DNA of 45,062 nucleotides, taken from positions 1 to 45,062 of the forward strand of contig JAGXIO010000210.1 of NCBI GenBank assembly GCA_024635555.1. The letters are read 5' to 3'. Under the pieces are notes generated by a model. It had not been told where the DNA came from, made no database searches, and was given only the letters and a program-made list of their open reading frames with translations. Each line of letters starts with the position of its first letter. The first letter of the stretch is position 1. The translations under genes were made by a program, and so were the position numbers. The stretch is from Saccharicrinis sp. (GTDB lineage: Bacteria; Bacteroidota; Bacteroidia; Bacteroidales; Marinilabiliaceae). Below are positions 14,386 to 20,438 of the stretch, one piece after another.

Positions 14386-17300
14386 TTACAACTTGGCTGA
14401 TATACCAAAACTGATGGTCCGTGTATTTGGAATTCCAGCAGCATCTACCCAAGTTGCTCCTTCTGGATCATAACCCGGATATTGCGTAAAGGTAACTAAA
14501 TTTGATACTTGTGCAGAAATATGAAGATTCTCTATAGCGAGTTTCGAAATAACTTTTTTAGGAAATGAATAGCCAATCGACAGGTTTTTCAAACGAATAA
14601 AATCACCTTTGTAAAGAAACTTCGAATGATTGTGTTGTTCTAAATTATAGTTTGGATCGCCAGCACCGGTAGGTGCCCACCAACCTTTTCCATTTCCGGC
14701 TTCAAAATTTGGATCATCGGCTGTGCTTTCCCATGCTGCATTAGGATAATTGCTCCCCCAAGATTGATAAGGATATTTGGCATCAGTTTTACCTGGTTCC
14801 CAAGTATTACCTACCATATCTGCTAACAATACTGTTTGTCCGTTATGTACATACGAATCTCTTTTCATGTTATAGTTATAAATGTAGTTTCCACCAGAGA
14901 ATGTGAAAAATAAATTTACATCAACATTGTGAAATTTAAAACTATTGTTCAAACCACCAAAATAACTAGGGATAATGGTTTTATCCTTAAACAAGTAATT
15001 ATTCAGTGTTACATTAGCTTGTGTAGCAGGAATTTTTCTTCCTGTTTTAATCGTTTTACCAGTTGCATTGTACTCGGTTTGGTCAATTTCCCAAATCATT
15101 TCCACGCCTTTGTCGGGGTCGATACCTGCATAATCGGCCATAAAGAATGCCCCCATTTTATTGCCAGTTACGTTTCTTGTTCCTGAATTGTATCCTACAC
15201 CCTTACCACCTTTATTTACTTCGGGAGTCAAACTTAATACCTTATTATCATTTGAAGAAATATTAAGGGTCGTTGTCCATTTAAAATTCTTTTTATCAAT
15301 ATTGATGCTGGTTACATTGAAATCGACACCATAATTAGCCATATCACCAATATTATCCCATATTTTATTATCTCCTATACCTGTTGAGATGGGTAATCTA
15401 ACCTCTAGTAACATGTCGGATATTTTCTTGTAATAATATTCTAAAGAACCGGAGATACGATTGTTTAATAATCCAAAATCTATACCTGCATCATAATTGA
15501 TGGTCGTTTCCCAAGTCAAATCTCTATTTCCAAGATTAGATACCTCTGTACCAGAACTTATATACTGAACGTCGCCATAACGTAATGAACTTTTATTGGT
15601 ATAATTAGTAGAGAATTTATTACTACCTATAGAATTATTACCGGTTTGACCAAAACTTCCTTTGAGTTTCAATTGATTGATGGTATGGCGCATTGAACTG
15701 AAAAAATTCTCCTCTGATATCAACCAAGCACCAGAAAGTGCGGCAAATTGACCCCATTTATCAGCTCCATAAAACTTGGAAGAACCATCCAATCGATAGC
15801 TTACAGCCACAACGTATTTGTCAAGTAAACGGTAATCAGCACGGAAGAAATAGGAACGTAAATAATCCTCATTCGACCATCTTGAGCTCATCGAAAGCAG
15901 TGTTCCCGGAAGCTCTCCTAATTGCGGATAATTTCCTTTCAAATCTTTTGCTTCCATCTTACGTTCCCAGCCCATCATTCGCATCGACTCTGTACCTAAT
16001 ACAGAATTGAATGAATGTATGCCAACAGAATTGTTGTATTTTAAATATGCATTGTAATTAATTACACGGCGTGTACTGTTTTGGTCCATAGCGAAACTTT
16101 TGCTATCTTCTGTCACCAATTCACTTTGCCAATCAACCGACGAATTATTGATATAATCCACCCCGAACTCGGTACGTGCCGACAAACCTTTTACTGCAAC
16201 CACTTTAAACTCAGCAAAAGAATTACCTATAATACGGTACTGATCTACATAATTCTGCAAAAATCTACGGTCGTTGTTGGCAGCTAAGTTGCCCGAACGG
16301 GCACTCCAATAACCTGTGGGATTTTCTTTATCGTAAATAGGCATCCATGGCATGGCATTGCGGTTCGCTGCTTCAAAAGCACCGGTTCTTCCGCCACCAC
16401 CTCCTATGGAACCTGTATAACCAGTTTTAACGCGGTTATTGTGCGAGTACGAAAACGCCATATTTGTTCCTACCGTAAAATTTTTCATGGCTTCAAATTC
16501 ACCATTCATACGACCTGTTATACGATCCATATCGTTGTTTTTTAACACGCCTTTGTCTGTACGATAATTAAATGAAGTATATACGGAACCACCTTCAAAA
16601 CCTTTGGACATGTTCATGTTGACATCATGATACTGACCAGTTCGCACTACCTGATCGAACCAATTAGAGTTAGTAGCCAATGCCTCTTCGCGGGATAAAG
16701 GCGAGAAAGGTACTTTGCCTGGATCTAAAGTTTGCGAAGGTTGAAAAAAAGCACCAGGTATGCCCGATTGATTTTGAATGGCATTGTCGGCCAGAGCTAT
16801 CCATTGTTCTGTGCTGGTAAATCCAACCTGAGACGGCGTACGGGTTAAATCACTGAATCCAGTATTATAATCCACATTGATATCTCCTTTTTTAGCTGAT
16901 TTTTTACCTGATTTGGTGGTGATGATAATTACCCCATTCGAACCACGCGAACCGTAAATAGCAGTAGCAGCTGCATCTTTCAGCACTTCCATGGTCTCAA
17001 TATCATTGGGATTAATCATAGACATGGGGTCTTGTGACACCGTGTTCGAACTTGCTTCCAATCCGCTACCTGAATATATAGGTACTCCATCGATAATCCA
17101 CAAGGGAGAAGTTCCTGCATTGATAGAGTTAATTCCACGTATATTGATTTTTGTAGGCGCACCAAGCATACCAGACTCAGTACTCACATACACTCCGGTG
17201 GCTCTTCCCTGCAAACCCTTAGTGGGAGATATGCTTTTCAGCGCAGTAAGGTCTTCCGATTTCACAGAGGATACCGAACCGGTAAAACTTCGTTTGTTTA

Positions 17301-17670
17301 CCGTTCCATAACCAACCACTACTACTTCCTCTAAGTTTAGTGCATTTATTGTGAGGGGTACTTCAAAAAAGTTATTAGTACTCACTTTTATTTCCTCTGT
17401 ATTGTAACCGATATAGGAAACAACAAGTATATCATCGGGCACTACATACAAACTGAAATTACCGTTAACATCAGTTATTGTCCCGGTTGTTTTACCTTTT
17501 ACCCCAACGTTTGCTCCGATAATGGTTTCACCCTTTTCGTCGTAAACAATTCCGGTAATGGTTTTGGATTGCGAATAAGCACTCGTTGCAAATACACTGC
17601 ATAAAAATAGTACTGAAAGCAGCACTCTCCAGGTTTGATGCATTTTTTTTATTTTTTCTTTAAGATTCAT
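14386..17670 (-). CDS. susC: SusC/RagA-type TonB-dependent outer-membrane transporter
   Basis: Imports glycan fragments through the outer membrane using TonB energy. The 1094-residue chain begins with a signal peptide (cleavage after about residue 34, ending SAYSQ). A carboxypeptidase-D-regulatory-like domain follows (ITGIVYDEKGETIIGANV to FEVPLTI), then the SusC signature VVVVGYGTVNKRSFTGSV. The plug domain holds GSRGSNGVIIITTKSGK, and a long beta-barrel ends in the aromatic-rich strand ISFGISAKL. No extra N-terminal STN signalling domain is seen, so control by an anti-sigma factor contact is unlikely for this member. It starts the susCD operon. A promoter candidate and an odd hairpin array lie upstream. 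Confidence 0.95.
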   Translation of the reverse strand: MNLKEKIKKMHQTWRVLLSVLFLCSVFATSAYSQSKTITGIVYDEKGETIIGANVGVKGKTTGTITDVNGNFSLYVVPDDILVVSYIGYNTEEIKVSTNNFFEVPLTINALNLEEVVVVGYGTVNKRSFTGSVSSVKSEDLTALKSISPTKGLQGRATGVYVSTESGMLGAPTKINIRGINSINAGTSPLWIIDGVPIYSGSGLEASSNTVSQDPMSMINPNDIETMEVLKDAAATAIYGSRGSNGVIIITTKSGKKSAKKGDINVDYNTGFSDLTRTPSQVGFTSTEQWIALADNAIQNQSGIPGAFFQPSQTLDPGKVPFSPLSREEALATNSNWFDQVVRTGQYHDVNMNMSKGFEGGSVYTSFNYRTDKGVLKNNDMDRITGRMNGEFEAMKNFTVGTNMAFSYSHNNRVKTGYTGSIGGGGGRTGAFEAANRNAMPWMPIYDKENPTGYWSARSGNLAANNDRRFLQNYVDQYRIIGNSFAEFKVVAVKGLSARTEFGVDYINNSSVDWQSELVTEDSKSFAMDQNSTRRVINYNAYLKYNNSVGIHSFNSVLGTESMRMMGWERKMEAKDLKGNYPQLGELPGTLLSMSSRWSNEDYLRSYFFRADYRLLDKYVVAVSYRLDGSSKFYGADKWGQFAALSGAWLISEENFFSSMRHTINQLKLKGSFGQTGNNSIGSNKFSTNYTNKSSLRYGDVQYISSGTEVSNLGNRDLTWETTINYDAGIDFGLLNNRISGSLEYYYKKISDMLLEVRLPISTGIGDNKIWDNIGDMANYGVDFNVTSINIDKKNFKWTTTLNISSNDNKVLSLTPEVNKGGKGVGYNSGTRNVTGNKMGAFFMADYAGIDPDKGVEMIWEIDQTEYNATGKTIKTGRKIPATQANVTLNNYLFKDKTIIPSYFGGLNNSFKFHNVDVNLFFTFSGGNYIYNYNMKRDSYVHNGQTVLLADMVGNTWEPGKTDAKYPYQSWGSNYPNAAWESTADDPNFEAGNGKGWWAPTGAGDPNYNLEQHNHSKFLYKGDFIRLKNLSIGYSFPKKVISKLAIENLHISAQVSNLVTFTQYPGYDPEGATWVDAAGIPNTRTISFGISAKL

Positions 17671-17766
17671 AAAATTGATACTTTAATTGTTTACTGAATT
17701 ATAGATTTATTGAGAGTAATGGTTAACGATAGTTGTTTGAATTACATTTGAAATCAACTGTACGAC

Positions 17767-17795
17767 GAAAATTAGATTTAATTGCCTTAATCAAA
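17767..17795 (-). promoter_or_regulatory. Candidate susC promoter
   Basis: Read on the minus strand, TTTG (17792-17795) is followed after 17 bp by TAATTTTC (17767-17774), which differs from TAnnTTTG only in the last base. The start site would fall near 17760, giving a leader of about 90 bases before susC. If this is right, the hairpin array at 17797-17993 lies upstream of the promoter and is not part of the mRNA. Confidence 0.45.
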
Positions 17796-17796
17796 A

Positions 17797-17993
17797 TTAA
17801 AACTTACACAAAAGATTTTATCTTTTGTGTAAGTTTTAACCTGCCCTATTCATAAATTTTATGAATAGGGCACCAAAGGCCGATTCTGCCTAAGCAGAAT
17901 CGAGGGTTAACCCTCGAAAAAGTCTACTTGAACTTTTTCGGCTTTCCGCCTATGATAGCGGAAAGTGAAAAATACATGCATTTTTCAGGTTAA
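17797..17993. repeat. Array of seven adjoining, unrelated hairpins
   Basis: Seven inverted repeats follow one another almost without spacers. (1) 20-bp perfect arms, 17797-17816 with 17820-17839, loop TTT. (2) 14-bp arms, 17842-17855 with 17859-17872, loop ATT. (3) 9-bp arms, 17881-17889 with 17894-17902. (4) CGAGGGTTAACCCTCG, a perfect palindrome at 17901-17916. (5) 9-bp arms, 17915-17923 with 17932-17940. (6) 8-bp arms, 17942-17949 with 17958-17965. (7) 8-bp arms, 17966-17973 with 17980-17987. Hairpins 3-4 and 4-5 share a CG pair at their edges. TTAACCTG (17836-17843) and CAGGTTAA (17986-17993) can close hairpins 2-7 into one multi-branched fold. The arms are unrelated to each other, so this is not a tandem repeat. 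Its nature is unknown: structured RNA, single-stranded-DNA mobile element or recombination site. Confidence 0.8.
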
Positions 17994-18189
17994 TAAGGAA
18001 TATCAATACAGTAATTTGTTTAAAATTGGCAGTATACAACATATATACACTAAATTGAAAATTAAAATCGTCACGCAATCAAATTTCTCTAATAATGCTT
18101 ATAAGAAGGATTTAAAAATACTGTTAACCAGGAGCTAATGATTTGATGTATTAATTGAAAGATGTAAAGTAATGTTCTTTTCAGATAAA
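17994..18189. other. Intergenic, nothing recognised
   Basis: A/T-rich sequence with no reading frame or clear hairpin. It separates the hairpin array from the IS4-type transposase fossil and may contain the decayed end of that element, but no terminal inverted repeat was identified. Confidence 0.3.
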
Positions 18190-18562
18190 AATTTCACAGC
18201 CGAACGAAAGTTTTCAAAAAAGTTGATGTTTGCAAATAAATCGTCTATATTTCTGACAATATAACTAAACGCTGTTTTATTTTTGCAATATACCCTACGA
18301 ATTAGCTCCAAAGGTAGATTACCTTATTCTCATCTTCTTTGTATACGGTTACCAACCTAAATATCTTACCTACCAGTCCAGCTTTCTTTGCATCTTTGTT
18401 TGTGAATTTTAACCCGCTTTTAGCTGTTCGGAACTATGCCTAATCAAAAAAGCTCAAACACAAGTTCACAGTAGAGCTATCCATCAGTTTTATAGTTTCA
18501 TTTTTAACCTCTTCAATTACATTTCTATCTCGGCGGTCAGTTAAAGTACGTTTGTAATAATT
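18190..18562 (-). pseudogene. Fossil of an IS4-family DDE transposase
   Basis: Reading the minus strand from about 18560 gives YYKRTLTDRRDRNVIEEV, then IKLMDSSTVNLCLSFFD, stop, A, stop, FRTAKSGLKF. This matches the IS4-type block in which the first catalytic Asp sits in a (V/M)DSST motif followed by LCLxLFxWAKFR and K-G-x-K. After an internal deletion the frame goes on with GKIFRLVTVYKEDENKVIYLW, the usual strand block before the last catalytic residue, and then fades. Several in-frame stops (including at the WAKFR motif) show that it is dead. Ends of the element were not found. Confidence 0.75.
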
Positions 18563-18629
18563 AATAAACTGATAATCTATAACTTATGCTTAAATAACTT
18601 TAGGTAGACAAAAGAAATATCTATATCTA

Positions 18630-19020
18630 TTTTTTATTGGCAACAACACTTTTTATGATAAAAAAATGGAGCGATGGAACATTGGATATCAAAGCGTTTA
18701 ATCCAAACGATTTAGATACGGACCAATGGTGTTGGGCTGCCCAAGCAGCAGGAATTTAATATATAGTCATTGTTACCAAACATCACGATGGTTTTTGTAT
18801 ATGGCCTTCAAAATACACAGATTACAAAGTTAAAAAATACACAATTCTGTAATGATTTGCTAAAAAAAATTGTAACTTCCGTTCATAAACAGAGTTTGAA
18901 AGTGGGCTTGTATTATTCCCTGTATTATTCATTATAGGATAGACATCTTAAAATACATGATACCAATGAAAGGGCTTATGTTGAATTTCTGAAAAATCAT
19001 AATAAACCAATGAGTTTAAA
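18630..19020 (+). pseudogene. Fossil of a GH29 alpha-L-fucosidase gene
   Basis: The reading IGNNTFYDKK, then after a one-base slip in the A7 run at 18661-18667 WSDGTLDIKAFNPNDLDTDQ, then WCWAAQAAGI, stop (TAA 18757-18759), YIVIVTKHHDGFCIWPSKY, matches the intact GH29 at 9463 (WSDGTLDPIRFNP, TDQWC, TKHHDGFALWPSKY) nearly word for word. After more stops it resumes as VTSVHKQSLKVGLYYSL and ends near AYVEFLKN. The start of the gene and everything after the first third, including the nucleophile region, are gone. It is a related but not recent copy, judging by the many substitutions. Confidence 0.85.
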
Positions 19021-19100
19021 AACATTTCAGGTAAAATCGAATACAAAACATATAACTATAAACTTTCAATCACTATTAACAATTTAAATTAAAATGTATT

Positions 19101-20438
19101 ATGAAAAAACTTACTATTCTAAGTGTGCTCTTTTTAATGAGTTTAACTCTCTGTTTTTCTCAGTGGCAAAAAATGAATTTGACGAGTAGTGTCGGTGGCG
19201 ATATTGATAAGAATATGTATCAAATGGCATTGGATAACAGTAAATTATATGTTGCTACAAATGATGGAATCTGGGAATCAGCTAGTGCAAATGGTGGCGA
19301 TTGGACAGCTTATGGACTTCAAGGTAAACGGGTGTTTTTGATGAATTTAGGTGTTCTAAAACTGGCTGTTACAGTTGAAACAGCTTCGGACGATGCAACA
19401 AAGAAAACACTTCAGCTTTACAAATACAATGGCACTGCTTGGGTTAATACAAATTTTAATCCTACGAAACTGGCTATATTTGGTTCAGTACTGGACAATC
19501 TTATTAATTTTGCTCAAATTCAGAATGATGGGGAAACCGTAATTGTTATGCCAACATGGGGAAATGGCATTTGGAGATCACCAGATGGAGGCGATACATG
19601 GACAGTATCTGCCTATGAAACTTGCACATCTTGTCCTAATAATACCAGTATACTATACAAAAAAATTTCCGGTATTTATACATTTCCAGGTGATACTAAA
19701 ATTTACGGAACAGATAAGGCGGATTTTAATATGCAATTTTTGATTTATTCAGAAGATTATGGTCTCACGTGGAATAATAAACCTGTAGCCAATTTTTTTA
19801 ATCCATGGGCATTGCACAAACGAAGTGTGGATGGAATGCCGTATCTCTATTGGGCAGGTGGTACTGGAAACCTGGGAGCAGTTTGGTTTTCGGATGACGC
19901 AGGCACAAATTGGGGAGCTTCTATAAGTTCTGGCGAAAATTTTTGGAATAATCGTCGGATTATCGGTGAAGATGATGGACCACTTTACATCATGTGTAGT
20001 GCCCATAATGTATATGTATCCAACGATAACGGTGACACCTTTGAGCCTGTAGGAACAGGCATTGTGATACCATCGTCAGTGCCTAGACCTGCAAATGAAC
20101 CATTTTTCTTAAGTCATTTGGTGAAATCATCAACAAAATTATATGTTTCTACTACAACTGATGGATTATATAGTTTTGATTTAACTACATCGGCTGTGCA
20201 AAATCAGAAAACGAATAAGCTAATGTTAATTGTTTCTGCTGATAAATCAAAATTGGAATTAACAACTGAGATAGGATCAAAAATTACAATCTTTAATACA
20301 GAAGGTAAAGTTATGAAAATAAGTCAAGCACAAAATATTAATATATCTATCGATATTCAGGATTTAAAATCGGCAATGTATTTCGTTCAAATTGAAAATG
20401 TGCAGGGGAAAAGCTTTACAGGGAAATTCGTAAAGTAA
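19101..20438 (+). CDS. T9SS-secreted Asp-box (BNR-like) protein, copy 1
   Basis: A 445-residue exported protein of unknown function. A signal peptide covers residues 1-20 (MKKLTILSVLFLMSLTLCFS). The body has Asp-box motifs of the S-x-D-x-G-x-T-W type at about 160-168 (SPDGGDTWT), 216-223 (SEDYGLTW), 263-270 (SDDAGTNW) and 306-313 (SNDNGDTF), plus a degenerate one near 60-68. This spacing fits a beta-propeller such as those of sialidases, Vps10 domains and many glycan-active proteins. Residues from about 370 form a T9SS type A sorting domain (ITIFNTEGKVM, then MYFVQIENVQGKSFTGKFVK), which targets it to the cell surface. No catalytic set is visible, so a binding role is as likely as an enzymatic one. 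It is the first of three tandem paralogs. Confidence 0.82.
   Translation: MKKLTILSVLFLMSLTLCFSQWQKMNLTSSVGGDIDKNMYQMALDNSKLYVATNDGIWESASANGGDWTAYGLQGKRVFLMNLGVLKLAVTVETASDDATKKTLQLYKYNGTAWVNTNFNPTKLAIFGSVLDNLINFAQIQNDGETVIVMPTWGNGIWRSPDGGDTWTVSAYETCTSCPNNTSILYKKISGIYTFPGDTKIYGTDKADFNMQFLIYSEDYGLTWNNKPVANFFNPWALHKRSVDGMPYLYWAGGTGNLGAVWFSDDAGTNWGASISSGENFWNNRRIIGEDDGPLYIMCSAHNVYVSNDNGDTFEPVGTGIVIPSSVPRPANEPFFLSHLVKSSTKLYVSTTTDGLYSFDLTTSAVQNQKTNKLMLIVSADKSKLELTTEIGSKITIFNTEGKVMKISQAQNINISIDIQDLKSAMYFVQIENVQGKSFTGKFVK

Follow-up and report, generated by a model that had tools for sequence, protein, structure and literature searches.

The hairpin array and its surroundings

The window, a stretch of 45,062 nucleotides from a draft genome of Saccharicrinis sp. 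(contig JAGXIO010000210.1), contains a SusC/RagA gene (14386-17670, TIGR04056) followed by a SusD-like gene, and a dense run of hairpins lies upstream of the SusC/RagA gene, the mobile unit within it at a distance of about 165 nt (Table 1). No ORF of 80 aa was called over the long region from these hairpins to the gene at 19101 (18000-19100); a piece of it, at about 18660-18790, may resemble a glycoside hydrolase fragment.

All seven inverted repeats with differing arms that the original prediction had described were located at 17797-17993. Both strands were folded, as had been proposed there, and the region folded far more stably than shuffled sequence: the RNA folds of 17780-18010 reached -93.7 kcal/mol on the plus strand and -99.9 kcal/mol on the minus strand (means of 200 shuffles, -40.2 and -44.7; z scores, -12.5 and -13.5 respectively), and none of the 200 shuffles folded as well. 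The plus strand of the 45 kb was also folded in 898 segments of 200 nt (step 50; mean -38.7, sd 9.3), and the segment starting at 17801 had the lowest energy of all (-89.6). A CRISPR had been discounted from the outset, and six two-copy direct-repeat families were found in 17600-18200, none of them regularly spaced.

Table 1. Features of the hairpin array in the window. Positions are those of the window; bp, base pairs.
Feature	Position	Strand	Description
Hairpin 1	17797-17839	-	20-bp arms, 3-nt loop; 43-nt palindrome adjoining the insertion
Left target-site duplication	17836-17839		TTAA; direct-repeat test on 22 copies
Mobile unit MITE-1, IS1380 type	17840-17989	+	CCTG...CAGG, 150 nt, hairpins 2-7
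Left terminal repeat	17840-17856	+	CCTGCCCTATTCATAAA
Hairpin 2	17842-17872	+	15-bp arms; the terminal repeat, then an inverted copy of it
Hairpin 3	17881-17902	+	9-bp arms
Hairpin 4	17900-17917	+	Palindrome centred on TTAA
Hairpin 5	17915-17940	+	9-bp arms in the window, 11 pairs in the consensus of the copies from this genome; loop CT
Hairpin 6	17942-17965	+	8-bp arms
Hairpin 7	17966-17987	+	Lengthened in copy L028, where a 22-bp palindrome extends into the flanking DNA
Right terminal repeat	17973-17989	-	CCTGAAAAATGCATGTA (inward reading)
Right target-site duplication	17990-17993		TTAA; direct-repeat test on 22 copies

A mobile unit and its copies in the genome

Hairpins 2 to 7 formed a unit of their own (MITE-1), and no ORF of at least 80 aa in the ORF list overlapped it. 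The original prediction had held that the lack of any second copy, along with no covariation and with dyads vanishing in close relatives, would point to a chance local structure; MITE-1 was found at 35 or more places in its own genome (5.33 Mb, 259 contigs). These 35 distinct places came from 63 match rows, after exclusion of self-complementary arm matches and of one place of a second family, and are a lower bound, as 40 of the 76 initial candidates were scored. Full-length copies numbered 22 including that of the window, to which the other 21 were 91-97% identical. The remaining places were partial or diverged: L026 and L029 end at contig ends, L032 is diverged and has no matching right end, L030 has an internal deletion, L033 is a left part, and L031 and L034 to L040 are eight right parts. 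Hairpin 1 occurred once in the genome and is terminator-like on the minus strand; since the sequence common to the other copies starts with the TTAA at 17836, this hairpin is outside the mobile unit, a separate terminator-like palindrome edging the insertion site.

The tetramers before CCTG and after CAGG agreed as direct repeats in 20 of the 22 full copies (p 0.0002, shuffling of the right tetramers). Agreement extended to flanks other than TTAA: ATAA/ATAA (L014), CTAA/CTAA (L024) and TTAG/TTAG (L025), and none of these non-TTAA cases agreed when the flanks were read as inverted complements. Two full copies had unequal flanks, L016b (TTAA/TTTA) and L022 (TTAA/TTAG), and those of L049, a copy from a relative, also appeared unequal. 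The original prediction had let TTAACCTG and CAGGTTAA close hairpins 2-7 into one multi-branched structure. This closure was ruled out: the flanking TTAA is a direct target-site duplication that mimics pairing only since TTAA reads the same on both strands, and the apparent stem is therefore a 4-bp inverted repeat (CCTG/CAGG) plus the palindromic duplicated target. The terminal inverted repeats were perfect over CCTG/CAGG only, and the 17-nt ends were alike at 10 of 17 positions, which is weak for a MITE.

A clean two-sided empty site was not found when L049, L015 and the flanks of the window copy were compared with relatives. Homologues of the left neighbour of L049 lacked the element in three genomes (G000, G005 and G007), where no alignment of the right side was obtained; the spacer of L015 diverges too far from the relatives for such a comparison, and no relative aligned across the insertion with the flanks of the window copy.

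None of the 22 full copies was inside a called ORF of at least 90 aa (mechanically called ORFs), save for contacts with a stop codon. Thirteen occupied spacers between genes of the same direction, four divergent and one convergent spacers, and four lacked a neighbour on one side. Two copies of this genome (L010 and L017) and two of relatives (L048 and L049) were inserted exactly at the TAA stop of the ORF preceding them; this TAA is part of the duplicated target, so that the end of the ORF is preserved. A short repeat of about 40-70 nt was shared by the flanks of L009 (right), L027 (left), L031 and L053.

Distribution in other genomes

Six of 100 genomes, the one under study included, gave a match at E <= 0.001 (at most eight candidates scored per genome): its own, G005, G006, G020, G050 and G088. 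Among these, real copies of MITE-1 outside its own genome were restricted to G005 and G006, both of the same genus; G005 corresponds to Saccharicrinis sp. LH_M89, as 700 nt of its locus L056 recur without a difference in L085. The matches in G020, G050 and G088 were short, and those in G020 and G050 resembled IS1380-type left ends. The other six of the eight congeners gave no match at E <= 0.001. The original prediction had also considered a chromosome-organising site; presence in two of the eight speaks against an essential site.

A scan of species genomes with TTAACCTGCNNTATTCATAAA yielded at least 107 stretches. Among the matches listed, the end motif was present in Saccharicrinis, Anaerophaga, Geofilum, Marinilabilia, Candidatus Aminicenantes, KSB1 and Calditrichaeota; single motif matches, for example in Wolbachia and Neobacillus, may be due to chance. 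The motif (up to 3 mismatches) formed an inverted pair spanning 73-196 nt at 16 of the 107 loci listed, and at two more spanning 371 and 2203 nt. Fourteen inverted-pair loci were folded and mostly gave one dominant long hairpin; among the folds inspected, the chain of six hairpins was confined to the genus of the window, and L160 had a few consecutive hairpins. Similar motif-bearing stretches were clustered in Anaerophaga (18 stretches, L075-L118) and in Candidatus Aminicenantes Zod_Metabat.480 (16 stretches, L086-L146), over several records, and these clusters are probably multi-copy IS1380-type MITEs.

IS1380-type ends and a putative helper transposase

The original prediction knew of no named family that fitted the array; the ends of the unit turned out to be IS1380-type terminal repeats. 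Within the GTDB family, 71 genomes were searched for PF13701; 30 gave a match, 17 of them above the cut-off, and 13 IS1380-type loci were inspected for their ends. Four of them (L193, L222, L223 and L224; 1602-1704 bp) had both ends, of the CCTG...TATTCATAAA-like type, and a duplication of 4 bp, the same length as in MITE-1: CTAG in L193 (ends CCTGAATAATTCATAAA and CCTGAACTATTCATAAA, gene uninterrupted), CTAA in L222, CTAT in L223 (right end CCTGCATTATTCATAAA) and CTAG in L224 (CCTGAATTATTCATAAA at both ends), the gene being interrupted by stops in the last three. The transposase of L193 belongs to IS1380 (363.6 bits with the NCBIfam model, cut-off 180; 480 bits with PF13701). Three others (L194, L229 and L230) were consistent with a 5-bp duplication, with CCTAAATTGAGCGATT-type ends in L229 and L230. 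The remaining six, among them the broken copy of the genome under study, gave no convincing end pair by script; for L070 and L193 the true ends were identified by reading, and for L193 alone also by script.

The broken IS1380 of the same genome (contig C245) had the ends CCTGAAATATGCATAAA and CCTGCTTAATTCATAAA and unequal flanks (ATAG/TTAG), as read by eye. The left end of MITE-1 matched the right end of this broken IS1380 at 14 of 17 positions, and that of L193 and of L223 at 15 of 17. The right end of MITE-1 matched the left end of the broken IS1380, CCTGAAATATGCATAAA, at 14 of 17, and the ends of the relatives' insertion sequences at 10-13 of 17. The CCTGNNNTATTCATAAA pattern had 34 matches in the genome and its reversed control none.

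An intact IS1380 transposase gene was not found in the draft genome, and the helper transposase is accordingly a proposed one. One of the 34 matches, on contig C117 (L275, 125-141), is an L193-like IS1380 left end at a TTAA that is interrupted by the contig end; a less damaged IS1380 may therefore lie hidden by the assembly. An autonomous element with a shared gene between paired ends was also considered for the named loci, and was rejected: 290 ORFs lying up to 2.6 kb from the motif on its inner side were clustered, and no common transposase emerged.

The IS1380-like ends, the 4-bp duplications of the relatives' insertion sequences and the IS remnants of this genome together place MITE-1 with the MITEs of IS1380 type. 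Judged from these sequences, hairpins 2-7 are very probably a non-autonomous MITE, most likely moved in trans by an IS1380 transposase that acts at the CCTG ends, with insertion into TTAA-like sites and a duplication of 4 bp; the transposition itself we infer. The transposase would recognise both CCTG-type ends, the unit would be inserted at TTAA-like tetranucleotides with duplication of the 4 bp, and the six hairpins, which occupy nearly the whole unit, have been carried through its amplification. Template switching between arms would lengthen, correct and invert hairpins in place, and would best account for part of the perfection of the arms.

A second family and partial copies

A second family (MITE-2, CCTGAACTATTCATAAA...TTATTTGGG) was present in the same genome with eight longer places and several fragments (L287-L294, for example L267 from 1501), and its left end was like that of MITE-1. 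Of the 9 copies counted, all but L041 had agreeing flanks, and in four of these 8 the tetramer was other than TTAA (CTAA, CTTA, TTAT and TTAG); the count of nine leaves aside L296 (TTAA/TTAA) and also L295, L297 and L299-L301, whose ends are unclear. Inside copies of MITE-2 is a junction reading AGG-TTAA-CCCC, and one very small complete unit, of 41 nt (L260/L303), reads TTAG|CCTG...GGG|TTAG.

Right-part copies of MITE-1 also pointed to internal TTAA sequences. Four of them (L034, L036, L037 and L035) begin at the TTAA of hairpin 4 and a fifth (L031) within 4 nt of that TTAA, which suggests that the internal TTAACC can act as a surrogate left end in these five. Their flanks matched in only two of the five cases, and differed in L037 (TTAA/ATAA) and in L035 and L031 (both CTAA/TTAA). 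A 5' truncation of the kind seen in retrotransposition, conceivable from the right end common to all eight right parts, was set aside, a surrogate left end being simpler for five of them; the other three (q101, q118 and q126) look like decay.

The arm sequence GTTCGGCGCAGCCAAT was observed in hairpins of MITE-1, of MITE-2 and of another palindromic repeat: L055 in G006, L293 in the genome under study (C81:280-295) and, with one mismatch, L315 in G006. It behaves as if it were a separate hairpin module inserting into hairpins.

Covariation and template switching

In an alignment of 31 copies, 93.3% of the cells paired. This alignment leaves aside the 12 partial copies of the genome under study, L053, L055, L056 and L058 (G005/G006) and the short G006 places. 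Both sides had changed in 20 cells, distributed over 11 pairs (shuffle means, 5.2 and 4.0), and none of 500 shuffles reached these values. The test for compensatory changes called for in the original prediction gave a mixed outcome: the copies exceeded the shuffles on all five measures and exceeded slid structures in cells (20 vs. 9-13) and score (0.067 vs. 0.026-0.038), but not in pairs (11 vs. 6-13). Among the 22 copies of this genome and L043, double changes in stems were compensating in 2 cases and non-compensating in none, which accords with template switching; 36 single changes in stems stand against it.

Constraint on the stems was also examined in 34 copies of the same genome (22 full and 12 partial, without the diverged L032). 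Copy-specific changes showed no significant depletion in stems relative to unpaired positions (25/3205 vs. 14/1102, p 0.14), which tells against template switching. When all changes were counted the contrast was strong (47/3205 vs. 52/1102, p 7e-9), owing to loop polymorphisms common to copies; without these it fell to 37/3179 vs. 18/891 (p 0.07), and the contrast was set aside.

Several copies had altered hairpins. In L028 the inner arm of hairpin 7 is complementary to the right end together with the target duplication and 6 nt of chromosomal flank, giving a perfect palindrome of 22 bp, which may be an assembly error as a contig end is only about 230 nt away. A match of the same kind, of 14 bp, was present in L016b, and the remaining aligned rows had no extension. 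The loop of hairpin 5 was changed from CT to its reverse complement, AG, in L024, L025 and L030, possibly through one inherited event, and larger hairpins stood in place of smaller ones in L055, L285 and L293. Two studies, in their available portions, name the homogenisation of arms, the extension of stems and the inversion of loops as marks of template switching (PMC8794818; PMC8604942). The flank-copying arm of L028, as read from its bases, bears such marks of template switching during replication, and the inverted loops suggest the same for other copies; as a general cause of perfect arms, template switching would be an extrapolation from them.

A further proposal, tentative but worth stating, is that MITE-1 may be a “palindrome-breeding” element, in which inserted hairpins are rewritten by template switching (arm repair, loop inversion, copying in of host flank), larger hairpins replacing smaller ones. 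If true, MITE families would diverge by gain and exchange of hairpins, strong covariation would arise without RNA function, and the copies would be a natural multi-copy system for measuring the rewriting of palindromes by template switching.

Alternative explanations for the hairpins

The hairpins might instead belong to a structured RNA (for example a multi-hairpin mRNA leader, a 3' UTR or a terminator/insulator) whose hairpins are selected on the transcript and which spreads as a mobile unit. The excess of cells changed on both sides over the shuffles favours it, as does the orientation of the copies, since 11 of the 13 full copies in same-direction spacers lie antisense to the genes on either side (one spacer contains two of these copies). 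The count of changed pairs, however, lies within the range of the slid controls, several old copies in G006 are without some of the pairs, and the copies occupy divergent and convergent spacers as well as tandem ones. The window had no Rfam match at the gathering score; the 13 matches at a relaxed threshold (mostly miRNA precursors, with Aar and OxyS) were far below it. Moreover, template switching can produce covariation without function, as stated in the available part of PMC8794818, and it accounts for part of the covariation seen here. Because template switching in a transposon can in part yield dense perfect hairpins with covariation, covariation alone need not imply a functional RNA, and we consider selection on a transcript improbable.

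The original prediction had also listed a single-stranded-DNA mobile or recombination element. A mobile element it is, to judge by the copies and their flanks, but the single-stranded kind was not sustained, and the evidence points to a DDE transposase of the IS1380 family with a 4-bp duplication. Hairpins recognised by an HUH enzyme or a tyrosine recombinase (as in IS200/IS605-like, REP/RAYT or integron attC-like systems) would agree with the position of hairpins immediately inside both ends, and with the TTAA loop of hairpin 4 as the start of several truncated copies. The 4-bp target duplication on both sides and the match of the ends to IS1380 terminal repeats make such an element extremely unlikely; IS200/IS605, REP/RAYT and integron attC-like systems are not known to make a target-site duplication. 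The array may instead have been built by nested insertion, successive small palindromic MITEs flanked by TTAA, like the 41-nt unit, landing beside or inside each other, and this origin would be compatible with a MITE of IS1380 type. It would explain the TTAA at the centre of hairpin 4, the internal junction of MITE-2, the existence of a tiny full unit and the start of right parts at the internal TTAA. The left parts L053, L058 and L033, however, extend 5-11 nt beyond the internal TTAA, the differing flanks of three of the five right parts mean that there is no clean duplication, and the perfection of all the arms would be left unexplained, so that nested insertion appears rather doubtful as the origin of the chain. 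A MITE moved by an IS1380 transposase is the reading retained, and the striking pattern of hairpins is accounted for as that of a mobile element.

Comparison with known systems

A published description of MITE-1 was not found in the open literature (subscription journals and ISfinder were outside the scope of the search). Other dispersed palindromes of bacteria offer partial parallels. REPs, described in the available text of PMC3733652 as 20-40 bp long and many of them with a GTAG or CGTC tag, are likewise dispersed extragenic palindromes; MITE-1 differs from them in its length (150 nt), its target duplication and its IS1380-type ends. BrickBuilt of Porphyromonas gingivalis is an intergenic MITE of Bacteroidota with predicted stem loops (PMC4596501, available portion). 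According to the same portion, its terminal inverted repeats were compared with those of the IS5 family, and it has 23-nt tandem repeats and long stems formed from direct repeats; MITE-1, in contrast, is a chain of different hairpins.

A close likeness is to the IS1380 family itself (PF13701, NF033539), in which the subgroup of L193, L222, L223 and L224 shares CCTGnnnTATTCATAAA-like terminal repeats and the 4-bp duplication; the element of the window differs in being 150 nt long, with six hairpins and without a transposase gene. Another subgroup (L229 and L230) has a 5-bp duplication and CCTAAATTGAGCGATT-type ends, and a 5-bp repeat is listed for IS1247 of Paracoccus in the accessible part of PMC3281130. 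The eukaryotic piggyBac elements, to which IS1380 transposases are described as distantly related, have a TTAA target duplication and short terminal inverted repeats (PMC10140906, in the part available); the bacterial elements described here also use CTAG, CTAA, CTAT, TTAG and ATAA.

Template-switch mutation is a process and not an element; here a bacterial MITE bears its marks in several copies, the copying of flanking DNA among them. The dozens of copies in this one genome would permit direct measurement of arm correction and loop inversion. Most of the features by which an IS1380-derived MITE was tested are present in MITE-1, although the two ends are weakly alike; an all-hairpin body is unusual. 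A TTAA-like tetramer followed by CCTGnnnTATTCATAAA offers a simple diagnostic for MITEs of IS1380 type.
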